A program made the translations under genes and the position numbers. DNA of 35,918 nt, taken from contig JAGSHF010000007.1 in the NCBI GenBank assembly GCA_023954685.1, positions 1 to 35,918 of the forward strand, in the 5' to 3' direction. Shown here one piece after another: positions 13,205 to 35,079 of this stretch. Within the stretch, counting starts at the first letter, position 1, and every line of letters begins with the position of its first letter. The notes under the pieces are model-generated. The model made no database searches, was not told the DNA's origin, and saw only the letters and a program-made list of their open reading frames with translations. The DNA is from Flavobacteriaceae bacterium. GTDB taxonomy: Bacteria > Bacteroidota > Bacteroidia > Flavobacteriales > Flavobacteriaceae.

Positions 13205-13756
13205 TTGAAAGCAATACTTAAAAAATATAAAGGCGTAGTTAAATTTGTTCTTACATTTCTAATGGTGTATATATTTCTAGCTATTTGTTATCAGGTGTAT
13301 TTGGATTATTCTAAAGACAGTAAATATTATCCAGATTACTTTACAGAATTGGTAGCGCATCAAACTCAGGAATTGTCTAATGCATTTGGGTATGAAACCT
13401 ACATGTTGGACCATCCCGATGAGCCCTCAATAAAAGTTATTTTTCGAGGTAAATATTTGGCACGAATAATAGAAGGGTGCAATGGTATTAGCATTATTAT
13501 TTTATTCGTTGCTTTTATTGTGGCTTTTGCTGAAAAGTGGAAACCTACACTAATTTACATTTTAGCAGGAAGCGTCTTGATTTATATCGCAAACCTCCTT
13601 CGTATTGTACTGCTTTATTTTGGCATTTACCATTATCCTTGGCATCAAGAATTTTTGCACGGGACTTTATTTCCACTTGCTATTTATGGGATGGTATTTT
13701 TACTTTGGATGTTTTGGGTAAATCGATATTCTAAATTAAAACAAAACGATGGATAG
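13205..13756 (+). CDS. xrtF: Exosortase family protein XrtF
   Basis: 183 residues with several membrane segments and the exosortase catalytic set: EGCNGI (Cys92), NLLRI (Arg133) and FLHGTL (His152). Exosortases are membrane cysteine peptidases/transpeptidases that process proteins carrying a C-terminal sorting tail. The short length, the Bacteroidota background and the partner gene directly downstream fit the XrtF subtype. The start is TTG at 13205; no ATG lies upstream in frame, and this start places the first membrane segment correctly. It overlaps the next gene by 8 bp. No obvious sorting-signal protein is in the window, so its substrate is unknown here. Confidence 0.9.
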   Translation: MKAILKKYKGVVKFVLTFLMVYIFLAICYQVYLDYSKDSKYYPDYFTELVAHQTQELSNAFGYETYMLDHPDEPSIKVIFRGKYLARIIEGCNGISIIILFVAFIVAFAEKWKPTLIYILAGSVLIYIANLLRIVLLYFGIYHYPWHQEFLHGTLFPLAIYGMVFLLWMFWVNRYSKLKQNDG

Positions 13757-14177
13757 GATTTTTAAGTATATTATCGTATCCGTTTTGATTTTGCTGTTGG
13801 TATTGATCCGCTTTTTCGAGAACGATTTGTTTTATGATCCATATTTGACATTTTTTAAAAATGATTACCTCTACCTGGATTCCCCTCGTCGTGAAGTGTT
13901 TAAGTTAACACTATTTACATCTTTGCGTTATGTATTAAATTCAATGATTTCTATGGCAATTTTATTTGTTGTTTTCAGGGATAAGGGGGTCATTAAATTC
14001 TCAGCAGTAGTGTATCTCTTTGCTTATATTATGCTGTTAGTCATCTTTTTATATTTTGTAATTAACCCAAGACAAGAAGATTACTATTTGTTTTTTAATT
14101 TGCGTCGCTTTTTAATTCAACCACTTATTTTATTAATCTTGCTTCCGGCGTTTTATTATAACAAAGTGAAAGTTTAA
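13749..14177 (+). CDS. Exosortase F system-associated membrane protein
   Basis: 142 residues with about four membrane segments (IIVSVLILLLVLIRF, SMAILFVVF, LFAYIMLLVIFLYFV, PLILLILLPAFYY) separated by conserved polar loops (DSPRREVFKLTLFTSLRYVLNS and NPRQEDYYLFFNLRRFLIQP). A protein of this size and topology directly after xrtF is the known XrtF companion. It overlaps xrtF by 8 bp, so the two are translationally coupled and probably form one membrane complex. Its biochemical role is not known. The operon appears to end here, before the metal-related genes. Confidence 0.85.
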   Translation: MDRIFKYIIVSVLILLLVLIRFFENDLFYDPYLTFFKNDYLYLDSPRREVFKLTLFTSLRYVLNSMISMAILFVVFRDKGVIKFSAVVYLFAYIMLLVIFLYFVINPRQEDYYLFFNLRRFLIQPLILLILLPAFYYNKVKV

Positions 14178-17375: not shown

Positions 17376-17708
17376 ATGAAAAAACTCACTTTTATGTTAA
17401 TGTGTATATGCGCATTAACACTAATAAATTCTTGTAAGGAAGAACATAAAGAAGAAAAGACTGAAGCATCTACTGAAGTACGAGGTGATCATGGCGCAGA
17501 AAAAGCCGATTTAGCAATGAATGATGAATTTCAATGCCCAATGGATTGTGAAGACGGTAAGACTTATGATAAAGCTGGTGCTTGTCCGATTTGCAAAATG
17601 GATTTAAAGAAAATTAAAACTATGGATAGTGATGAGCATGCTCATGATGATGGCGAAACGCATGAGAATCACGATGCTGAAAAAAGCCATGATGAAGATG
17701 GACATTAA
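17376..17708 (+). CDS. Heavy-metal-binding-domain lipoprotein with His-rich tail
   Basis: 110 residues. The lipoprotein signal ends in LINSC (Cys20). The core FQCPMDCEDGKTYDKAGACPICKMDL (Cys54, Cys58, Cys70, Cys73) is a variant of the heavy-metal-binding domain found on copper-efflux proteins (usual pattern CPMHP...CPKCGM); here D-C replaces H-P. The C-terminal 30 residues are a His/Asp/Glu-rich metal sponge (DEHAHDDGETHENHD). It is expected as an outer- or inner-membrane-anchored periplasmic metal buffer. It lies 23 bp after the HMA gene. Confidence 0.85.
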   Translation: MKKLTFMLMCICALTLINSCKEEHKEEKTEASTEVRGDHGAEKADLAMNDEFQCPMDCEDGKTYDKAGACPICKMDLKKIKTMDSDEHAHDDGETHENHDAEKSHDEDGH

Positions 17709-17715
17709 GAATATA

Positions 17716-18462
17716 ATGATAAAAGCCGAAGTTAAACGCTTCGGTTTTTTTATTGGTGTTGCTCTATTGAGTATTTCTTGTAACAATAATACTTTATCAG
17801 GAAATAAAGTGGTTAGAAATTCAATTGAAACGCATGGCGGATATGAACAATGGGAAGCATTAAAACAGTTGAGTTTTAATAAAGAGACTACTTTGTTTTA
17901 TGAAGATGGTTCGGTTGAAACGCATACCAATCAGTACCAGATGTTCAATTTTAAAAATGGGCTTTCGGGAACCATAGTATGGCAAGATTCTGAACAAAAA
18001 AAGCATCAAATTCTTTTTGATGATGGAAACATAACTAAAACTGTAAACGATACAATGGTGACCTCCATTGAGGAGTTGAAACGCGCAGAGAACTCTTTTT
18101 GGGCGGCTTATTATGTTGCGAGTAAACCATTTGATTTGGTTGATCAACCTGTTAATTTGGATCTAATTAGAACCATAGATTATAATGGTAAAAAGTGTTA
18201 TGAAGTCGCGTTAAACTATAAAAATAGCAGCGATGAAAACGGCGATCATTGGTTTTATATTATTGATACTGAGACTTATGAGGTGCTTGCTAATAAGGTG
18301 GTTTTAAAGGATCACACGAGTTGGATTGACAACTTAACATTTGATGAGTCTACCCCCTTTAAATTTAATTCGCATCGCAAAAGTTATCGACTAAATGATG
18401 AAGGAGAAAAGACTTATTTAAGAGCTGAGTATTATTATAAAGATTTTAAAGTGCTATTTTGA
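17716..18462 (+). CDS. DUF6503-like lipoprotein
   Basis: The ORF track starts at 17629, but that extension is the out-of-frame shadow of the His-rich tail. ATG 17716 follows the upstream stop codon by 7 bp and gives KRFGFFIGVALLSISC, a lipoprotein signal (248 residues). The mature part begins IETHGGYEQWEALKQLSF and has the alternating strands and late tryptophan/tyrosine (DHWFYIIDTETYEVL) of LolA/LolB-like or DUF6503 proteins, which carry hydrophobic ligands or lipoproteins. The exact function is unknown. Its first codons hold a terminator-like hairpin (see the separate entry), so its expression may be limited relative to the metal genes. The family name is from memory and is only moderately certain. 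Confidence 0.6.
   Translation: MIKAEVKRFGFFIGVALLSISCNNNTLSGNKVVRNSIETHGGYEQWEALKQLSFNKETTLFYEDGSVETHTNQYQMFNFKNGLSGTIVWQDSEQKKHQILFDDGNITKTVNDTMVTSIEELKRAENSFWAAYYVASKPFDLVDQPVNLDLIRTIDYNGKKCYEVALNYKNSSDENGDHWFYIIDTETYEVLANKVVLKDHTSWIDNLTFDESTPFKFNSHRKSYRLNDEGEKTYLRAEYYYKDFKVLF
17721..17751 (+). terminator. Terminator-like hairpin inside the start of the lipoprotein gene
   Basis: CCGAAG-TTAAACG-CTTCGG followed by TTTTTTT, extended at the base by A-T and one G-U pair. This has the form of an intrinsic terminator for the HMBD lipoprotein gene, but it lies within codons 2-12 of the downstream coding region. It could cause partial termination or attenuation. Confidence 0.5.
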
Positions 18463-21340: not shown

Positions 21341-22240
21341 TTATTCTTGTAATTCTTTTATTGCTTGAATTTGGTTTGCAAAGAAACTACTTTTTTCTGG
21401 ATATTTCAAACTTAATATTTTATAAGATTGAATGGCTTTTTTGTAATTTTTTTGCTCCAAATATATACGCGCAAGCGTTTCTGTCATTAACGAATCTGGT
21501 TCCGATTTCGTTGATATAGAAAGGTTGATAGGTTTACTGTCTTTTTTAACAGGTGCAATCTTTGGGTTGCTTGCAATGAATTTATCTATTAACTCTAACT
21601 TTTCTGTGATTGGTTTTTCAACTTCAGTAGAGGTGATTTCTGTATTTTCGTCTCGAATTATTGGTTTGAAACTCGTGATTTTTAACCATTCACCAAATGA
21701 ATGAATCTCATTTTTATTAAACTCAAAGGGCTTACCAATTTGGAGTTTAGTTTCTGGCGACAGTAAAGGTTCGACCATTTTGGTTTCGATGTGTGATCCA
21801 TCAACTTCAATAACATGATTTGAAGGTGTTGGTTTAACTTTAAATAAATCAGGATCTAATAGAGGTTCTGAATCCTTAATTTGCTGTTTTAAAGCGTCGT
21901 CAATAATGACACTTTTTTGAACCGAAATATCTTCAATATTAACATCAATATCTTTAAGGTGTTCTATGTTTTGCTGAATGTGTTTGGAGATTTCATTTTG
22001 CAGAAAAACTTCAGAAGTGATATAATCAAACAAAACACTTCTGTCTGTTGAATAAGCGGCTGTTGATTTTAATTCTTGATTGTATTTAAAACTTCCTTTT
22101 TGTTTTAATGCTTTAAGGTAAACTGCACGACCAGCTTGAAAGTATGGGTATTTATTTATTAATGCTTGAATTTCACTTAGCTGACTTGGATTTATTTTCC
22201 CTGGATGTTGAAGTAGATATGTGAGTTCGGTTGTATTCAT
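21341..22240 (-). CDS. Conserved TPR-containing protein of unknown function
   Basis: About 299 residues. The N-terminus (TELTYLLQHPGKINPSQLSEIQALINKYPYFQAGRAVYLKAL) resembles a helical repeat. The middle is charged and probably disordered, and the C-terminus (SLMTETLARIYLEQKNYKKAIQSYKILSLKYPEKSSFFANQI) is a clear TPR unit. I start at ATG 22240, which overlaps the lptE stop codon as TAATG; the ORF track uses the ATG two codons earlier. There is no signal peptide, so it is cytoplasmic. Its fixed place between lptE and secG hints at a role in envelope biogenesis, but none is demonstrated. Confidence 0.7.
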   Translation of the reverse strand: MNTTELTYLLQHPGKINPSQLSEIQALINKYPYFQAGRAVYLKALKQKGSFKYNQELKSTAAYSTDRSVLFDYITSEVFLQNEISKHIQQNIEHLKDIDVNIEDISVQKSVIIDDALKQQIKDSEPLLDPDLFKVKPTPSNHVIEVDGSHIETKMVEPLLSPETKLQIGKPFEFNKNEIHSFGEWLKITSFKPIIRDENTEITSTEVEKPITEKLELIDKFIASNPKIAPVKKDSKPINLSISTKSEPDSLMTETLARIYLEQKNYKKAIQSYKILSLKYPEKSSFFANQIQAIKELQE

Positions 22241-22746
22241 TACCATTTTGCTAATGATGCATTAAAAATATCTTGAGTTATACGTTCAAAAATTTCGTCA
22301 TAAGCGGTAACTTTTTGCGCGCCAACAAGTAACTCACTGCCTTCGTAATCATAATAAAAAGAAAATCGTGTATCAAACTCGGCATCTGGATCGTTCTTGT
22401 CGAAAAAGCGAACTTGAACACCAATTGTCAATCGGTTTTGTGCTGCTTTATTATCTGAAGTCGCTGTTGTTGGCGAAATTCGATATTCAATAATCTCACC
22501 TTCATAAACTAAGTCACCATTATTTTTCACTAAGTCTAAACTGGTTTGATTTAGTAATAAATCTATTAAAGAATTAGTGAAAGCTCTATCTAATCCAGGT
22601 TCAATTAGTGGTGCGTTATTTTGAAAAAAATTAACTTGAAACGTTTTTGTTTCAGATGAAATCGATGCCCCTGTGAAAGAGTAGGCTCCACAACTTAAAA
22701 TAAGTGTTATTGCAATTAGTGGTAAAATGTATTTAAATACTTTCAT
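22240..22746 (-). CDS. lptE: LptE-family LPS-assembly lipoprotein
   Basis: The Met at 22746 is chosen over 22773 because it gives KVFKYILPLIAITLILSC with lipobox LILSC (Cys19; 168 residues). The mature sequence GAYSFTGASI followed by TFQVNFFQNNAPLIEPGLDRAFTNSLIDLLLNQT, then DLVYEGEIIEYRISP, matches the Bacteroidota LptE-like family. In the family LptE plugs the LptD barrel and helps deliver LPS to the outer surface. It starts 16 bp after the sigma-54 activator gene and its stop codon overlaps the TPR gene start, so the operon is tight. Confidence 0.8.
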   Translation of the reverse strand: MKVFKYILPLIAITLILSCGAYSFTGASISSETKTFQVNFFQNNAPLIEPGLDRAFTNSLIDLLLNQTSLDLVKNNGDLVYEGEIIEYRISPTTATSDNKAAQNRLTIGVQVRFFDKNDPDAEFDTRFSFYYDYEGSELLVGAQKVTAYDEIFERITQDIFNASLAKW

Positions 22747-25727: not shown

Positions 25728-26477
25728 ATGACCTTTATAGAAATAGAGAAAAAAATTAAGCAATCTGCATACTTGGATTTTGGAAATGTTTTAGATCAAA
25801 CTTTAAAACTGTTTAAAGAGGTTTGGTTAAAAGGATTTTTAATGATTGCTGTAATACTAGTATTAGGGTTTGGAATAACGCTGCTGTTTACTAATATAGG
25901 ATTGGGATCTAGGTCTTATTTGCTAGATTGGGAAAGTGGAATTAATTTGTATTCGGCATTCACATTAAATTCGTTATACAGTTTACCACAAACTATTTTA
26001 CTTTCCTCAATTATGATAGGTGCCTTGGCAGGTTTTTATCGAAATTGCAGACAGGCAGATTTGAACCAAATTCAGAATGAGGATATGTTCTATTTTTTTA
26101 AAAGTAAATACATAAGTAAGTTGCTTTCTTTGGGAATGATTTATGCCATTTTAGCGGCGGCGGCCCAAGCATTGTTTCTTTTACCTTATATATATGTCTT
26201 TGTGCCACTGTCTTTTTTTTCGGTCATATTTGCATTTAATGAAGACTTGAGTGAAGCTGAAATTGTTAAATTGAGTTTTATATTAGGAACAAAAAAATGG
26301 TTCTTAACGTTTGGTTTGCTATTTATTATGGGTGTTATTGCGTGTCTAGGCTTGGTAGCCTGTGGTGTTGGCGTTTTTTTTACGATGTCAATTGTTTATA
26401 TACCGGTGTACTTTGTTTATCGCGATGTTGTAGGCTTTAGCGACGATGATGATATTATGAAAATAGGAACAGAATAA
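25728..26477 (+). CDS. Polytopic membrane protein of unknown function
   Basis: 249 residues with about five membrane segments (FLMIAVILVLGFGITLLF, TILLSSIMIGALAGFY, LLSLGMIYAILAAAAQALFLLPYIYVFVPLSFFSVIF, TFGLLFIMGVIACLGLVACGVGVFFTMSIVYIPVYFVY) and a soluble N-terminus (YLDFGNVLDQTLKLFKEVWLKG). This resembles the DUF975 / glycerophosphodiester-phosphodiesterase membrane-domain style of integral proteins, in which LDFGxxLxxTxxLF starts the family. No active site is visible. It stands alone between two divergent or well-separated units. Confidence 0.6.
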   Translation: MTFIEIEKKIKQSAYLDFGNVLDQTLKLFKEVWLKGFLMIAVILVLGFGITLLFTNIGLGSRSYLLDWESGINLYSAFTLNSLYSLPQTILLSSIMIGALAGFYRNCRQADLNQIQNEDMFYFFKSKYISKLLSLGMIYAILAAAAQALFLLPYIYVFVPLSFFSVIFAFNEDLSEAEIVKLSFILGTKKWFLTFGLLFIMGVIACLGLVACGVGVFFTMSIVYIPVYFVYRDVVGFSDDDDIMKIGTE

Positions 26478-26625: not shown

Positions 26626-29142
26626 ATGGCGAAGAATTTAGTGATAGTTGAGTCACCTGCAAAGGCAAAAACCATAGAAAAATTTCTTGGAAAAGATTTT
26701 ATTGTTGAATCCAGTTTTGGGCATATAGCAGATTTACCTTCAAAGGAGTTAGGTGTTGATGTTGATGGTGATTTTAAACCTAAATATGAGGTTTCACAAG
26801 ACAAAAAAGCGATTGTAAAAAAACTGAAGGAATTAGCGAAAAAAGCAGAAACGGTTTGGCTCGCTAGTGATGAGGATCGTGAAGGAGAGGCTATTGCATG
26901 GCATTTGGCAGAGTCATTAAAATTAGATAAAGATAAGATTAAACGAATTGTTTTTCACGAAATCACTAAAACGGCAATTCAAAAAGCAGTAGAAAACCCA
27001 AGAGATATAGATTATAATTTGGTTGATGCACAGCAAGCACGTCGTGTTTTAGACAGAATTGTTGGGTATGAACTTTCTCCTGTGCTTTGGAGAAAAGTAA
27101 AAGGAGGTTTGTCTGCAGGACGTGTGCAATCGGTTTCGGTGAGGCTAATTGTAGAACGTGAACGTGATATACAGGGGTTTAATCCAGTGGCGTCCTATAG
27201 AATTGATGCAGAATTTTCAAATGAAGCAGGTCAAAGTTTTAAAGCGAAGTTGCCTAAAAATTTCTCAACTAAGAAGGAGGCCTATGCGTTTTTAGAGTCG
27301 AATGCATCTGCAGATTTTAAAGTGTCAAGTTTAGATAAAAAACCAGCTAAAAAATCTCCGGCTGCACCATTTACAACGTCTACATTACAGCAAGAAGCTG
27401 CGAGAAAACTCTATTTTTCGGTAAGTAAAACCATGACCATAGCACAACGATTATATGAGGCGGGTTTAATTACTTATATGAGAACAGATAGTGTAAACTT
27501 ATCTGATGAAGCAAGAAAAGGAGCGCAATCTGAAATTGATTCGGCTTATGGATCTCAATACAGCAAACCAAGAAATTATAAAGGCAAGTCTAAAGGCGCT
27601 CAAGAAGCCCATGAGGCTATTCGTCCAACTGATTTTTCAATTCATAAGGTGGAAATAGATTATGATCAAGCACGACTGTATGAGCTTATATGGAAGCGTG
27701 CTATTTCTTCTCAAATGAGTGATGCCCAATTGGAGCGTACAAATATTAAAATTGGAGCATCTTCACATAATGAAGTGTTTACTGCTAATGGTGAGGTAAT
27801 TACTTTTGACGGCTTTTTAAAAGTGTATTTGGAAAGTACAGATGATGAAAATGAAGAACAAGATGGGATGTTGCCAGCTATGAAGGTGAATGAAACCCTT
27901 CTCAATAAATACATTACAGCAACGGAACGTTATACACGTGCACCTGCAAGATTTACAGAAGCTTCCTTAGTTAAAAAATTGGAAGAACTTGGAATTGGTA
28001 GACCATCGACATATGCGCCTACAATTTCAACAATTCAGAATAGAAATTATGTTGAAAAAGGGACGGTAGAGGGCGAAGCACGTAATTATACACAACTAAC
28101 TCTAGAAAGCGGTATTGTTCAAGATAAATTGTTGTCGGAAAAAGTAGGGTCGGATAAAGGGAAACTAGTCCCAACAGATATTGGAATGATAGTGACCGAT
28201 TTCTTGGTGAATCATTTTGAGAGTATTTTGGACTATAATTTTACGGCGAAAGTTGAGAATCAATTTGATGATATTGCCGATGGTAAGGAGGATTGGACTG
28301 AAATGATGAAGAACTTTTATAAAGATTTTCATCCACAAGTTGAAGATGTTGCGGCCAATGCGAATAGAGAATCTGGAGAGCGCATTTTAGGAACAGATCC
28401 TAAAACGGGAAAACAAGTAAGTGTAAGGCTCGGTAAATTTGGACCAATGGTTCAAGTAGGTACTGTTGATGACGAGGAAAAACCGACATTTGCAAGTTTG
28501 AGTCCAGATCAACAACTTACTACCATTACATTTGAACAAGCAATGGACTTGTTTCAGCTTCCAAAAGATTTGGGGGTTTATGAAGATGAAGATGTACAAG
28601 TTAATAATGGTCGCTTTGGGCCTTATGTGAAATTTGGAAAAACATATGTTTCTTTACCTAAAGGCACAGACCCATTAACGGTTGAAATGGATGATGCTAT
28701 TGTTTTGATAAAAGAGAAACAAAAGGCAGATGCTCCTATATATATGTATGATGATTTACCAGTTCAAAAAGGTAAAGGGCGTTTTGGGCCATTTATAAAG
28801 TGGAACAATATGTTTATTAACGTCAATAAAAAATACGATTGGGATAATTTATCTGATACCGATATCATAACTTTGATTGAGGATAAAATACAAAAAGAAA
28901 AGGATAAATTGATCCACCACTGGGAGGCCGAAGGTATTCGTGTAGAAAAGGCTAGATGGGGCAGGCATAATATCCTAAAAGGGAAACAAAAGGTAGAACT
29001 TGCAAAGACCATTGATGTAAGTGAAATGAGTTTAGAGGAAGCACAAGCTCATCTTGAGAAAAATGCACCCAAAAAGAAAGCGGCTAAAAAGAAAGCACCT
29101 AAAAAGAAAACTACAACAAAAACAACCTCAAAAAAGAAGTAG
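26626..29142 (+). CDS. topA: DNA topoisomerase I (type IA)
   Basis: 838 residues. The Toprim domain opens the protein (NLVIVESPAKAKTIEKFLG) with the acidic DEDREGEAIAWHL near residue 82. The catalytic tyrosine is in GLITYMRTDS (Tyr284). After the core come repeated C-terminal units (GTDPKTGKQVSVRLGKFGPMVQVG, VNNGRFGPYVKFG, KGKGRFGPFIKW) and then a lysine/alanine/threonine tail (KKKAAKKKAPKKKTTTKTTSKKK). The CxxC zinc fingers of the E. coli enzyme are absent, as is usual for Bacteroidota TopA. It relaxes negative supercoils by single-strand passage. The next gene begins 3 bp after the stop codon. Confidence 0.98.
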   Translation: MAKNLVIVESPAKAKTIEKFLGKDFIVESSFGHIADLPSKELGVDVDGDFKPKYEVSQDKKAIVKKLKELAKKAETVWLASDEDREGEAIAWHLAESLKLDKDKIKRIVFHEITKTAIQKAVENPRDIDYNLVDAQQARRVLDRIVGYELSPVLWRKVKGGLSAGRVQSVSVRLIVERERDIQGFNPVASYRIDAEFSNEAGQSFKAKLPKNFSTKKEAYAFLESNASADFKVSSLDKKPAKKSPAAPFTTSTLQQEAARKLYFSVSKTMTIAQRLYEAGLITYMRTDSVNLSDEARKGAQSEIDSAYGSQYSKPRNYKGKSKGAQEAHEAIRPTDFSIHKVEIDYDQARLYELIWKRAISSQMSDAQLERTNIKIGASSHNEVFTANGEVITFDGFLKVYLESTDDENEEQDGMLPAMKVNETLLNKYITATERYTRAPARFTEASLVKKLEELGIGRPSTYAPTISTIQNRNYVEKGTVEGEARNYTQLTLESGIVQDKLLSEKVGSDKGKLVPTDIGMIVTDFLVNHFESILDYNFTAKVENQFDDIADGKEDWTEMMKNFYKDFHPQVEDVAANANRESGERILGTDPKTGKQVSVRLGKFGPMVQVGTVDDEEKPTFASLSPDQQLTTITFEQAMDLFQLPKDLGVYEDEDVQVNNGRFGPYVKFGKTYVSLPKGTDPLTVEMDDAIVLIKEKQKADAPIYMYDDLPVQKGKGRFGPFIKWNNMFINVNKKYDWDNLSDTDIITLIEDKIQKEKDKLIHHWEAEGIRVEKARWGRHNILKGKQKVELAKTIDVSEMSLEEAQAHLEKNAPKKKAAKKKAPKKKTTTKTTSKKK

Positions 29143-29145
29143 CAC

Positions 29146-30312
29146 ATGAATTTTAATTTTCTTACTCCAGTACCAGATTTGGTTTTAGCGCATAATGAGC
29201 TTTTGTCAACTCAAGTGCTCGGAAGGAAATTGAAAATTCATTCAGAGCAACAAGGTTTTCCAGATCTTGATGACGTAAAAATAGCTATTGTAGGTGTGCT
29301 TGAGAACCGGAATGACGTTAATTATATAGGAGAACCTTTTCAGCTTAATGAAATAAGAAAATCATTATATGCGCTATTTCCTGGAAATTGGTATCTCAAT
29401 GCTGCTGATTTAGGTGATATCCAAAGTGGAGAAAGTGTAGAAGATACATATTATGCCTTACGCACCATAATCAATGTCCTTTTAGAAAAAAATATTATTC
29501 CTATTATTATAGGAGGAAGTCAAGACTTAACTTATGCCAATTATAGAGCCTATGATGATTTCATGCCTATGGTTAATATCGTTAATATTGATAGTAATTT
29601 CGATCTTGGTGATTCTGCAAAGCCTATAAAAAATAACAGTTTTTTAGGTAAAATTATTTTGGAGCAACCATATAACTTATTTAACTATTCTACTTTAGGC
29701 TATCAAACCTATTTTAATTCGCAAGAAGAAATAGATTTGATGGATAAATTATATTTTGAAGCCTATAGACTTGGTGAAGTGATAAATAACATTAATTTTG
29801 TAGAACCTATTATGAGGGATGCTAATATAGTTAGTATGGACTTAAGTAGTGTACGCTCCTCTGAGCTCAGTTCAAAACAAAAATATTCTCCCAATGGTTT
29901 TGATGGTAAAGAGATATGTGCAATAGCAAGATATGCTGGAATAAGTAATAAAGTATCATCTTTTGGTGTTTATGAATATAAGCCTTCAAAGGATGACCAA
30001 GCAACATCAATGTTGATGGCGCAAGTTATCTGGTACTTTATTGAAGGCGTCAATTGTAGAATTACAGATGATGATTTTTCAGATGCTGCGAGTTATCAAA
30101 AATTTACAGTATTAATAGATGATGACGAATTGATATTCTATAAAAGCAACAAAACTGGTCGCTGGTGGATTGAGATTCCTTTTTTGCCAAATGTTAATAA
30201 TAAATTAAAGAGACACACGTTATTACCTTGCATGCATGAAGATTATATTGCTGCAACCAAAGGGAAGATCCCAGAGCGTTGGTATAAAGCTTTTAAGAAA
30301 AATAGCATTTAA
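29146..30312 (+). CDS. Arginase/formimidoylglutamase-fold protein with degenerate active site
   Basis: 388 residues of the ureohydrolase (arginase/agmatinase/formimidoylglutamase) fold. The expected metal-binding motifs are recognisable but altered: GGDHS is GGSQD (123-127), DAHxD is NIDSNFD (147-153), and SxDxDxxDP is SMDLSSVRSS (230-239). The metal-binding His and several Asp are therefore gone and the protein is probably not a hydrolase. It starts 3 bp after topA and ends 153 bp before gldK. I recall proteins of this kind next to gldK in other Flavobacteriaceae, often annotated as formimidoylglutamase. A structural or assembly role with the gliding/secretion system is possible but not shown. 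Confidence 0.8.
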   Translation: MNFNFLTPVPDLVLAHNELLSTQVLGRKLKIHSEQQGFPDLDDVKIAIVGVLENRNDVNYIGEPFQLNEIRKSLYALFPGNWYLNAADLGDIQSGESVEDTYYALRTIINVLLEKNIIPIIIGGSQDLTYANYRAYDDFMPMVNIVNIDSNFDLGDSAKPIKNNSFLGKIILEQPYNLFNYSTLGYQTYFNSQEEIDLMDKLYFEAYRLGEVINNINFVEPIMRDANIVSMDLSSVRSSELSSKQKYSPNGFDGKEICAIARYAGISNKVSSFGVYEYKPSKDDQATSMLMAQVIWYFIEGVNCRITDDDFSDAASYQKFTVLIDDDELIFYKSNKTGRWWIEIPFLPNVNNKLKRHTLLPCMHEDYIAATKGKIPERWYKAFKKNSI

Positions 30313-30465: not shown

Positions 30466-31854
30466 ATGAAGAAACTAGTTTTATTAACCGCGATTTTAGC
30501 TATTGTTACCAGTTGTGGCTCCGGAGATAGGGGTGAATTGGTAGGAGTTAAAGGAAAGAAATGGCATCCAGAGAAACCTTATGGAATGGAGCTTGTTCCT
30601 GGAGGTGCTTATATTATGGGGAAATCAGATGATGATTTGGCCGGCATAAAGAATGCACCTACTAAGACAGTTACCGTAAGATCGTTTTATATGGATGAAA
30701 CTGAAATTACTAACAGTGAGTACCGCCAATTTGTTAATTGGGTAAGAGATTCTATCATTAGAACGAAGTTGGCTATTCTAGCTGATGAAATTGGTGAATC
30801 TGACCCAGAAGCCGGAGGTATCGCTGAATATGCATTTAGAGATGCAGATACAACCGACATGACTGTATATGAAAAGTACATGTTAGACAATTATAGTGGT
30901 CTAGGTGCAACTGGATATGAAGGAAGAAAATTAAACAAAGATGTTGATTTGGTCTTTGATACCGCTGAGTATCCAGATGCAAATTATACTGAAGTTATGG
31001 ATACCATGTATCTTCCCTTAGAAGAATCTTATAATGGACAACGTACTTGGGACGTTACCAAGTTTCAATTCCAATACACTTATATGGACATTAAATCTGC
31101 GGCAAAGTACAAAGAACTAAAGCGTAGTGATGTCATTATTAAGGAAGATATTCAAGTATATCCGGATACTACCGTTTGGATTAGAGATTTTGCTTATTCT
31201 TATAATGAGCCAATGCATAATGATTATTTCTGGCATGAAGCCTATGGAGAATATCCTGTAGTTGGGGTGTCTTGGAAACAAGCAAGAGCATTTTGTCAAT
31301 GGAGAACGTTGTATAAGAATGCTTATCAAAAATCAAAAAGTACGCAATACGTAAATGGCTTTAGATTACCATCTGAAGCAGAATGGGAATATGCTGCTAG
31401 AGGTGGTTTGCAAGGTGCAACTTACCCTTGGGGTGGTCCTTATGTGAAAAATGACAGAGGATGCTTTATGGCAAACTTTAAACCTGTTCGTGGCGATTAT
31501 GCAGCTGATCAAGCATTATATACTGTAGAAGCTGAGTCATACGAACCAAATGATTTCAATCTGTATAATATGGCAGGTAATGTATCAGAATGGGTAATGT
31601 CATCTTATGATCCTGCATCATATGAGTATTCTTCAACAATGAATCCTAGTGTTATTGACGAAGAAAACGAACGTAAAGTAGTTCGTGGAGGCTCATGGAA
31701 AGATGTTGCTTACTTTTTACAAGTGAGTTCACGTGATTATGAGTATGCAGATTCAGCAAGAAGTTATATTGGTTTCCGTACTGTACAAGATTATATGGGT
31801 ACAGATATTACGGCTAATGCAGCTACAAATAGTAAAAAGATTAAAAAAAGATAG
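30466..31854 (+). CDS. gldK: GldK, type IX secretion/gliding lipoprotein
   Basis: 462 residues with lipobox IVTSC (Cys17) and a formylglycine-generating-enzyme-like (FGE-sulfatase) domain: MELVPGGAYIMGKSDDD, DETEITNSEYRQFVNWV, VVGVSWKQARAFCQWR, GFRLPSEAEWEYAARGG, NLYNMAGNVSEWV, and VVRGGSWKDVAYFLQVSSRDY. GldK forms, with GldN, the large ring that lies in the periplasm under the outer membrane in the type IX secretion system. It is first of the gldK-L-M-N operon and has a promoter candidate upstream. The domain is related to FGE, but this family member is structural. Confidence 0.97.
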   Translation: MKKLVLLTAILAIVTSCGSGDRGELVGVKGKKWHPEKPYGMELVPGGAYIMGKSDDDLAGIKNAPTKTVTVRSFYMDETEITNSEYRQFVNWVRDSIIRTKLAILADEIGESDPEAGGIAEYAFRDADTTDMTVYEKYMLDNYSGLGATGYEGRKLNKDVDLVFDTAEYPDANYTEVMDTMYLPLEESYNGQRTWDVTKFQFQYTYMDIKSAAKYKELKRSDVIIKEDIQVYPDTTVWIRDFAYSYNEPMHNDYFWHEAYGEYPVVGVSWKQARAFCQWRTLYKNAYQKSKSTQYVNGFRLPSEAEWEYAARGGLQGATYPWGGPYVKNDRGCFMANFKPVRGDYAADQALYTVEAESYEPNDFNLYNMAGNVSEWVMSSYDPASYEYSSTMNPSVIDEENERKVVRGGSWKDVAYFLQVSSRDYEYADSARSYIGFRTVQDYMGTDITANAATNSKKIKKR

Positions 31855-31903: not shown

Positions 31904-32545
31904 ATGGCACAATCAAAAGCAAGTAAAAGGTTCATGAATATGGCCTACGGATTAGGAGCTTCAATTGTAATTGTTGGAGCATTATTTAAAATTATTCACT
32001 TCGAAATCGGACCCCTAACAGGTAACGTAATGTTAACTATTGGTCTAGTAACTGAGGCAATTATTTTCGCGCTTTCAGCGTTCGAACCAGTGGATACTGA
32101 TTTAGACTGGTCACTAGTATATCCAGAATTAACTGGAGCACAAGCCAAAGGTAAAAAGGATGCCCCCAAAGATGCCGAAGGTTTATTATCTAAGAAATTA
32201 GACAGTTTATTAAAAGATGCTAAAATTGATGGCGAACTTATGGCCAGCTTAGGAGATAGTATTAAGAATTTTGAAGGTGCAGCAAAAAATATGGCACCAA
32301 CTGTAGACTCCCTGAATGCTACCAAAAAGTACAGCGAAGAAATGTCTTTAGCTGCAGCACAAATGGAATCATTAAACAGTTTATATAAAGTACAGCTAGA
32401 TAGCGTTAACCGTCAAGCTTCAATTAGTGAAGAGCAAGCGGAAAATGCAGTGAAGCTTAAAGAACAAATGCAATCTTTAGCGTCTAACTTGTCATCATTA
32501 AATGGTGTATATGGAGGAATGTTAACAGCAATGAATAAAAACTAA
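31904..32545 (+). CDS. gldL: GldL, motor subunit of the type IX secretion system
   Basis: 213 residues. Two membrane segments near the N-terminus (AYGLGASIVIVGALFKIIHF, and NVMLTIGLVTEAIIFALSAF) contain charged residues inside the membrane, Lys29 and Glu51, as expected for the proton-conducting GldL. A long cytoplasmic helical part follows (KKLDSLLKDAKIDGEL to LASNLSSLNGVYGGM). GldL pentamers surround a GldM dimer and use the proton-motive force to drive secretion and gliding. It lies between gldK and gldM with short gaps. Confidence 0.96.
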   Translation: MAQSKASKRFMNMAYGLGASIVIVGALFKIIHFEIGPLTGNVMLTIGLVTEAIIFALSAFEPVDTDLDWSLVYPELTGAQAKGKKDAPKDAEGLLSKKLDSLLKDAKIDGELMASLGDSIKNFEGAAKNMAPTVDSLNATKKYSEEMSLAAAQMESLNSLYKVQLDSVNRQASISEEQAENAVKLKEQMQSLASNLSSLNGVYGGMLTAMNKN

Positions 32546-32583: not shown

Positions 32584-34140
32584 ATGGCTGGAGGAAAATT
32601 ATCTGCTAGGCAGAAAATGATTAACCTGATGTATTTAATATTCATCGCTATGTTAGCGTTAAATATGTCTAAAGAAGTGCTATCAGCATTTGGGTTAATG
32701 AACGAAAAGTTGACAGTTGCTAACACATCTGCAACAGATAGAAACATGAGTTTCTTTGCAAACTTAGAGCAACAGGCTGGTGAACAACCAGAGAAGTACA
32801 AGCCTTTACTAGAGCAAGCAAAATCAGTAAAGTTGTTAGCAAATGACTTTGATAGTTATATAGCTGAATTAAAAGGGAATATGACTTCTACGGTTGATGA
32901 TCCATCAGATTATGAAATCATGGATAAAGGAGATTACCTTGATCAAAATTTCTTTAAAGGTGACAACCTAAAAGAAGAAGGACAACGTTTTCTTGATGAA
33001 ATGAACAAGTTTAGAGATGGTATCGTAGATGTTATTGGTACTGATTTCCCTGAAATCGCGGATGACGTGAAGCAAAACTTTTCTACAGATCAAGTGGTTG
33101 ATAGAAACGGTTTGAAACGTGACTGGATTGAGTACAACTATAAAGGATTTCCTTTAGTGGCGTCTTTAACAAAAATGACTCAAATGCAAGCTGATATTAA
33201 GGATACTGAATCAGAAGTGATGTCTGCTATGTTGCAGGGTACTTTGTCAAAAGAGGTATCTATGACTAACTATACGACGTTACTTGAAACATCAAAATCT
33301 GCTTACTTTAATGGCGAGAAATTTGATGGAGAAATTGTATTAGGTCGTAAAGATGCTTCAACAAAGCCAAATAGAGTAGAACTAACTCTTGATGGTAGAG
33401 CTTTAAAAGAAACTGAGTATTCTATTGAAGACGGTAAAGTGAAATTAATTATCAATGCTGGTTCAGCAGGTGAACATAAAATTGAAGGTAAATTAATTTT
33501 TGCTCAAGATGGTGAAGAAATTGAAGTGCCAGTATCGCAAACTTTTGCTACGGTACCTAAGCCAAATGCAGCAACAATTTCAGCTGATAAAATGAATGTG
33601 GTATACCGTGGTGTTAAAAACCCAATGACCATTTCTTTTGCAGGTGTATCTGATAATAAGGTTGTAGCAAATGCTCAAGGTTTATCTAGAGCTAGTGGAA
33701 GTAAGTACGTTATGGATGCAACATCAATTAAGGGTCGTGAAGTGACCATTAATGTAACAGGTACTTTGCCAGATGGACAAAAAGTAAGTGATAATGCTAA
33801 ATTTAGAATTAAAGATTTACCAAAACCAACAGGAACTGTGAGAGGTGAAGACGGTGCAATTAAAATGCAACGTAACAGTCTTGAGATTTCTACAATTGGT
33901 GCTAAATTTGATGATTTTGATTTTGAATTACCACTTAATGTTACAGGATTTAAGTTTAAAGTTCCTGGACAACCAACGATAACCGTTAGTGGAAACAAGT
34001 TAAACTCAAGAGCAAAAGCTGCTTTGCGTAAAGCTAAGCGTGGATCTGGAGTTCAAGTGTTTGATATTCAAGCTAAGGCCAAAGGTGTAAGTGTACTCCT
34101 TAAAAAGGTATCACCTGTATTTGTTGAGCTTACAAACTAA
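32584..34140 (+). CDS. gldM: GldM, motor and periplasmic shaft of the type IX secretion system
   Basis: 518 residues. The N-terminus is cytoplasmic and short (MAGGKLSARQKMINLMYLIFIAMLALNMSKEVLSAFGLM) with one membrane helix, then a long periplasmic part of four domains: helical D1 (about 40-220), then beta domains with ELTLDGRALKETEYSIEDG and VVYRGVKNPMTISFAGV, ending in the conserved GKSFELPLNVTGFKFKVPG-like segment (here FDFELPLNVTGFKFKVPG). It transmits motion from GldL to GldKN. Length and order are typical. Confidence 0.97.
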   Translation: MAGGKLSARQKMINLMYLIFIAMLALNMSKEVLSAFGLMNEKLTVANTSATDRNMSFFANLEQQAGEQPEKYKPLLEQAKSVKLLANDFDSYIAELKGNMTSTVDDPSDYEIMDKGDYLDQNFFKGDNLKEEGQRFLDEMNKFRDGIVDVIGTDFPEIADDVKQNFSTDQVVDRNGLKRDWIEYNYKGFPLVASLTKMTQMQADIKDTESEVMSAMLQGTLSKEVSMTNYTTLLETSKSAYFNGEKFDGEIVLGRKDASTKPNRVELTLDGRALKETEYSIEDGKVKLIINAGSAGEHKIEGKLIFAQDGEEIEVPVSQTFATVPKPNAATISADKMNVVYRGVKNPMTISFAGVSDNKVVANAQGLSRASGSKYVMDATSIKGREVTINVTGTLPDGQKVSDNAKFRIKDLPKPTGTVRGEDGAIKMQRNSLEISTIGAKFDDFDFELPLNVTGFKFKVPGQPTITVSGNKLNSRAKAALRKAKRGSGVQVFDIQAKAKGVSVLLKKVSPVFVELTN

Positions 34141-34188: not shown

Positions 34189-35079
34189 ATGAATTTAAAA
34201 AGTTTTGTATTAACCGTTTTGTGTGGGTTTACCTTCGCAGGAGTGTTTGCTCAAGCAAACCTATTGAACGCGAAGTCTCCTGATGATATTGGTATTAGAA
34301 CTGCTGATCAAATTGCACTAGACAATGATAAACCCTTAGAATACGGGTATGTCGATGATAGAGATATATTGTATTCGAGAATGACATGGGAAAGAATTGT
34401 TTTAGACGAGCGTGTTAATTTCCCGTTGTACTATCCAATTGATACAAACAACATTGGAAAGAACCGTAGATCATTGTATGACGTTTTAATGAAAAACGTT
34501 CAAAATGGTAAGATTAAAAACATCTATGATGATTCTTACTTTACAACTAAACGTACCTTAGGAGATATTGAGGATGCATTGAAAATGGTAGATACCACAG
34601 AATTAGGTATTGAACAAATTAATGCAGGTGAAGAATTATCTGCTGAATACATCAATAAAAGAGAAATCACAGCTGCTGATATTGTAGAATATCGCATTAA
34701 AGGATTGTGGTATTTTGACAAACGTATGGGCGAATTGAGATACCGTTTATTAGGTATTGCACCAGTTGCTCCGGATGTTAATTTTATTGATAGTGATGAA
34801 CCAGATTTAGTGCCATTATTTTGGGTGTTTTTCCCAGATGCAAGAGAAGTTTTGCATATGTCAAAAGCATTTAATAATCAAAATAGTGGAGCTCCAATCT
34901 CTTTTGATCATCTATTAAATTCAAGACGTTTTAGCGGCTATATTTATAGAGAAGAAAATGTACAAGGAGACAGAATGATATCTGAATATATTAATAACAA
35001 TGCTTTGATGCAGTTATTAGAATCGGATAGAATTAAAGATAAAATTCGAAATTTCGAAATGGATATGTGGAGTTACTAA
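34189..35079 (+). CDS. gldN: GldN, type IX secretion ring protein
   Basis: 296 residues with a signal peptide (SFVLTVLCGFTFAGVFAQ). Conserved features are DDRDILYSRMTWERIVLDERVNFPLYYP, the EYRIKGLWYFDKRMGELRYRLLGIAPV segment and PLFWVFFPDAREVLH. GldN (PorN) binds GldK in the periplasmic ring. It is the last gene of the operon and is followed by a strong terminator. Confidence 0.97.
   Translation: MNLKSFVLTVLCGFTFAGVFAQANLLNAKSPDDIGIRTADQIALDNDKPLEYGYVDDRDILYSRMTWERIVLDERVNFPLYYPIDTNNIGKNRRSLYDVLMKNVQNGKIKNIYDDSYFTTKRTLGDIEDALKMVDTTELGIEQINAGEELSAEYINKREITAADIVEYRIKGLWYFDKRMGELRYRLLGIAPVAPDVNFIDSDEPDLVPLFWVFFPDAREVLHMSKAFNNQNSGAPISFDHLLNSRRFSGYIYREENVQGDRMISEYINNNALMQLLESDRIKDKIRNFEMDMWSY

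Follow-up and report, generated by a model that had tools for sequence, protein, structure and literature searches.

What role does a protein with the fold of arginase and an altered metal site play when its gene lies between a DNA topoisomerase gene and an operon of the type IX secretion system (T9SS)? The question arises from an open reading frame for a 388-aa protein, named PSA here, in the genome of Flavobacteriaceae bacterium (GCA_023954685.1). The window, by which we mean the whole stretch of DNA that was analysed, comprises positions 1–35,918 of its contig JAGSHF010000007.1. The topA stop codon is followed after 3 bp by the PSA gene on the same strand, and a further 153 bp separate PSA from gldK, with gldL, gldM and gldN beyond it. 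The genes are as follows.

26626–29142, + strand: topA, DNA topoisomerase I (open reading frame; a topA homologue lies upstream in all examined loci of the same family)
29146–30312, + strand: PSA gene, arginase-fold pseudoenzyme of 388 aa plus stop (open reading frame, Pfam, AlphaFold model, Foldseek)
30466–31854, + strand: gldK (FGE-sulfatase domain, 2.8e-49; order with gldL conserved)
31904–32545, + strand: gldL (GldL_N, 6.1e-28; TIGR03513 match in the same genome)
32584–34140, + strand: gldM (order and homology)
34189–35079, + strand: gldN (order and homology)

Elsewhere in the window, positions 13205–13756 (+) give a weak exosortase match (23.9 bits against a Pfam cut-off of 25.7), followed by a small overlapping open reading frame at 13749–14177. 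Sizeable open reading frames at 17629–18462 (+), 21341–22246 (−) and 25728–26477 (+) have zero Pfam matches.

An arginase fold with a partly dismantled metal site

PSA belongs to the arginase/ureohydrolase superfamily by both profile and fold, in agreement with the earlier note, which had recognized an overall ureohydrolase pattern. The Pfam Arginase model (PF00491) matches with E=4e-15 and 56.5 bits, well above its gathering cut-off of 22. The AlphaFold (AF2) model is confident (pLDDT 92.6, pTM 0.93), and a Foldseek search with it returned 206 matches at E≤0.001, and the 50 matches listed are ureohydrolases without exception. The best match in the PDB is the formiminoglutamase HutG (4mxr, 1.1e-16), and the leading matches include the T. 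cruzi and B. subtilis formiminoglutamases along with metformin hydrolase chains. HutG (TIGR01227; PDB 4mxr, 3m1r) is the closest known protein by sequence model and by fold, sharing the arginase alpha/beta core. However, PSA lacks three of the metal ligands, carries about 80 additional C-terminal residues and does not lie in a histidine-degradation locus. A HutG (formimidoylglutamase) identity was rejected on the lost ligands and on the score against the nearest NCBIfam model, TIGR01227, which at 58.1 bits falls far below the equivalog cut-off of 229.15.

A catalytic dimanganese ureohydrolase requires six ligands, two His and four Asp, which in rat arginase numbering are H101, D124, H126, D128, D232 and D234. 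The earlier note had claimed that all three metal-binding motifs are altered in PSA, and this proved real on alignment with the canonical arginase-fold protein of the same genome, where GGSQ, DSNFD and SMDLSSVRSS occupy the same columns as GGDH, DAHAD and SLDLDALDP. The alteration is partial at the level of single ligands: three of the six are gone (H101 to Gln, H126 to Asn, D234 to Ser), while D124, D128 and D232 remain Asp. The changed motifs and the added C-terminal region are located as follows.

29512–29523, + strand: GGSQ in place of GGDH, residues 123–126 (Gln at the H101 ligand; alignment)
29590–29604, + strand: DSNFD in place of DAHxD, residues 149–153 (D124 and D128 kept, H126 lost; alignment)
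29833–29862, + strand: SMDLSSVRSS in place of SxDxDxxDP, residues 230–239 (D232 kept, Ser at D234; alignment)
30061–30309, + strand: C-terminal extension, residues 306–388, absent from canonical ureohydrolases (W340 and C362 invariant)

The canonical protein used for comparison is the one further arginase-fold protein of this genome (L081, G000:C94:4464-5231); it is encoded on another contig and has its six ligands intact.

Scoring the ligands across homologues, the check that had been proposed, extends the result to the whole family. A pool of about 200 homologues from close relatives and from genomes of the class and phylum provided 95 diverse members for alignment, and none of these keeps all six ligands or even H126 and D234 together. 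Restoration of the metal site is likewise not seen among the approximately 200 homologues. The three Asp are jointly kept in 75 of the 95, with column conservation at the 87th to 90th percentile, whereas the H126 and D234 columns have drifted, their commonest residues reaching only 26% and 41%. Position 101 is Gln in 63% of members. In arginase, H126 and D234 serve the second metal only, and the pattern is thus one of a lost second metal site with a retained Asp cluster, not of uniform decay. By the same alignment procedure, five or six ligands are intact in each of nine canonical relatives, and their ends coincide with the start of the PSA extension.

The retained residues bear on whether any chemistry is left. 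A Glu occupies the E277 position in 53 of the 95 members, and going by these residues some metal or guanidino-ligand chemistry could survive at the conserved Asp triad. The PSA alignment has no column that is mostly His (maximum 45%), an argument against catalysis at a conserved site built on His. In one family (f2) the Asp triad is lost as well, and PSA persists there.

Conservation and distribution of PSA

PSA forms a single clade with respect to the nine canonical relatives (SH-aLRT 100 on a quick tree that has several long branches). Among close relatives, the median dN/dS is 0.038 over 67 pairs, indicating strong purifying selection. That value, together with class-wide conservation, led to rejection of a chance open reading frame or a decaying gene, and a sequencing or frameshift artefact was rejected on the strength of around 200 independent copies. 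Eight residues are invariant in the alignment of 95 members: G90, E220, R224, G251, G265, W296, W340 and C362. The last two fall in the extension, which carries the motifs FYKS..S.RWW and PC..xDY..A...P.RW, with D366/Y367 near-invariant; these stretches match the arginase domain in their level of conservation. The model predicts strands and helices for the extension, mostly at high confidence. One copy, L136 (G446:C1:921217-922263), is in three pieces with a TAG codon and frame shifts and represents either a broken gene or an assembly error.

Of 295 genomes drawn from across the class Bacteroidia, 276 contain a PSA match. Outside the class, matches in the phylum sample end by about residue 321 and so come without the extension. 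A second large sample, from the order of genome G230 (probably Bacteroidales), has PSA in 105 of 149 genomes. When apparently PSA-less genomes were searched by profile for diverged forms, only three sub-domain matches emerged (E 0.002–0.013). PSA appears to be a core protein under strong constraint, present almost throughout a major bacterial class. The class-wide ligand loss, the single clade, the purifying selection and the invariant residues of the extension lend good support to the earlier note's proposal of a pseudoenzyme retained for a different role.

Gene neighborhoods and type IX secretion

The description of the gene as fixed between topA and gldK is accurate for the family of the window and fails for the class. 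Within the family, the order topA–PSA–gldK is seen in 78 of 80 close loci (the remaining two are on short contigs) and in all 29 further loci. A set of 100 diverse loci gives a different picture; it was picked for spread and not at random, includes five loci picked for T9SS absence and has a few cut by contig ends. Here PSA is near topA and T9SS genes at 29 loci, near topA alone at 15, near T9SS genes alone at 5 and near neither at 51. Linkage to gldKLMN, found in all judgeable same-family loci, therefore drops to 34 of 100, against 44 of 100 for topA. Synteny with porP–gldKLMN nevertheless extends over many families in at least two orders, and in many families other than that of the window a PorP/SprF gene sits between PSA and gldK. 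In the order of G230, gldL lies 2.5–3.7 kb downstream on the same strand in 56 of the 105 PSA-positive genomes.

A second recurrent context appears in 12 families with PSA near neither topA nor gldK, where a gene for an extended SDR epimerase is divergent from PSA. The SDR is HpnA-like, scoring below the HpnA cut-off, and is usually within about 200 bp of PSA (about 2 kb in family f4).

L168:4573-5544, − strand: SDR gene divergent from PSA (equivalents at L169–L171, L257, L259, L263, L264, L267, L270–L272, L274 and L279–L286)

The divergent orientation is identical in all loci found, and a quick tree indicates at least seven switches between the topA/gldK and SDR contexts. Genes for a D-Ala-D-Ala carboxypeptidase and an N-acetylmuramic acid 6-phosphate etherase are among the other recurrent neighbors, each confined to one or two families and too narrowly spread to interpret.

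Co-occurrence with T9SS is significant and leaky. In the class sample, PSA and GldL occur together in 268 genomes, PSA alone in 8, GldL alone in 9 and neither in 10 (p 3e-9, uncorrected for shared ancestry). The corresponding numbers in the order of G230 are 105, 0, 31 and 13 (Fisher p ~3e-8, also uncorrected for shared ancestry). Some absences may be assembly gaps, and the key exceptions were for this reason drawn from near-complete genomes. Five 99%-complete genomes of family f3 (G360, G659, G748, G763 and G778) lack GldL and SprA, G360 also lacks GldM, and all five keep a full-length PSA with profile scores of 510–554 bits, like those of T9SS-positive relatives. A further PSA-positive genome without GldL and SprA is G447 (family f69, 95% complete). 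In the other direction stand the 31 genomes in the order of G230 with GldL and no PSA, and others in the class sample. Exceptions in both directions mean that T9SS and PSA can each do without the other. Phylogenetic profiles, drawn up for the class sample as well as for one family and one order, led to rejection of PSA as a dedicated T9SS part. PSA thus has an operon-like neighborhood in common with the GldK/L/M/N–PorP operon in many families, yet differs from that operon in also occupying genomes without T9SS and in missing from some that have it. As a separate observation in family f3, two complete-looking genomes of one genus, G002 and G758, have a GldL-type gene and lack SprA, which suggests that the motor gene can be kept without the T9SS translocon.

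Candidate roles and known arginase-fold pseudoenzymes

The reading we favor, at a probability of roughly 0.58, is that PSA is an ancient, class-wide, non-hydrolytic binding or regulatory protein derived from a ureohydrolase, and that its adjacency to T9SS genes is inherited context. The ancestor would have been a formimidoylglutamase- or agmatinase-like ureohydrolase. Before the family radiated, it would have lost the second metal site (H126 and D234), and with it presumably guanidine hydrolysis, and gained a C-terminal subdomain of about 80 residues. The fold may now act in binding or regulation within the cytosol, a location we infer because no signal or membrane segment is evident in the protein. 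A remodeled pocket, with the Asp triad and a Gln for His, together with a C-terminal cap bearing W340, C362 and D366/Y367, might recognize a ligand or a protein partner. The topA–PSA–gldK placement would then reflect an operon context that some orders inherited, and would not by itself establish a function dedicated to T9SS.

The T9SS scaffold or assembly factor that the earlier note suggested has synteny and co-occurrence on its side and T9SS-less carriers, GldL-positive non-carriers and the many SDR-divergent loci against it. In its more exact form, PSA would assist or regulate the T9SS/gliding motor from the cytosol, for example by acting on the cytosolic portion of GldL or by influencing gldKLMN expression. 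This seems unlikely to us, even though PSA directly precedes gldK or porP–gldK in relatives of the same family and in many families besides, gldK is near PSA without topA at five loci, and all 13 GldL-negative genomes in the order of G230 lack PSA. Undiminished PSA scores in genomes devoid of GldL and SprA are hard to accommodate, as are the 66 of 100 diverse loci away from gldK, and topA is an equally or better conserved neighbor. A broader scheme, which we regard as improbable, is a ligand sensor in which the half-dismantled arginase site and the C-terminal cap would couple a metabolite signal to neighboring envelope or DNA-topology functions, including the T9SS motor operon and not limited to it.

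PSA could also remain an enzyme of a different reaction, using either a mononuclear metal site (D124/D128/D232 with Gln or His at 101) or a new site around Cys362. The strong conservation of the three Asp amid drift at H126 and D234, the invariance of Cys362 and the restriction of two of the three losses to second-metal ligands would all suit such an enzyme; the lack of a conserved His as base or acid and the persistence of PSA in f2, where the Asp triad is gone, do not, and we consider it improbable. Least probable of all is a hetero-oligomer in which PSA would be the non-catalytic partner and a true ureohydrolase the enzyme. The model for such a partner is MetCb, the metal-free arginase-fold subunit of metformin hydrolase, which caps the MetCa active site and has a longer C terminus at the interface (PMC11271267). 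Metformin hydrolase chains rank among the best fold matches, and the genome does encode one canonical arginase-fold protein. However, its gene is on another contig and not adjacent, in contrast to the adjacent metCa–metCb pair, and no ureohydrolase gene is among the recurrent neighbors of PSA.

Apart from this role, PSA falls by sequence and model into the class of arginase-fold pseudoenzymes typified by MetCb and TbARG, in which the fold is conserved and no usable dinuclear center remains. With MetCb/MfmB (8x3g, 8snf, 8ryi) it shares a fold match, the missing metal center and a longer C terminus. Of the six ligands MetCb has lost five, and it functions together with a catalytic subunit encoded next to it, whereas PSA keeps the Asp triad, has no such neighbor and forms its own class-wide clade. 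The second precedent, an arginase-like protein of Trypanosoma brucei (PDB 4rhl/4rhm/4rhq), has an arginase fold that evolved without a dimanganese cluster and is cited in PMC11271267. This eukaryotic protein matches PSA very weakly (E 0.07–0.42), over residues 102–162 only and not in the extension. The Asp triad, the extension and the breadth of distribution set PSA apart from both. In the open-access literature, we found no paper describing the PSA family and none relevantly joining gldK with arginase, formimidoylglutamase or topA.

If confirmed, these findings would extend the short list of known arginase-fold pseudoenzymes by an old and widespread member and would offer a simple genetic test of whether a gldK-adjacent gene matters for secretion. 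They would also correct many genome annotations in which a histidine-degradation step is wrongly listed. Judged from its residues, PSA looks like a protein whose homology scores point to an arginase or formimidoylglutamase, yet which cannot act as either through the known mechanism. A possible instance is the genome paper on Mariniflexile litorale, where the histidine pathway is described as absent "except for formiminoglutamase" (PMC11278836); that enzyme may be a misnamed PSA.
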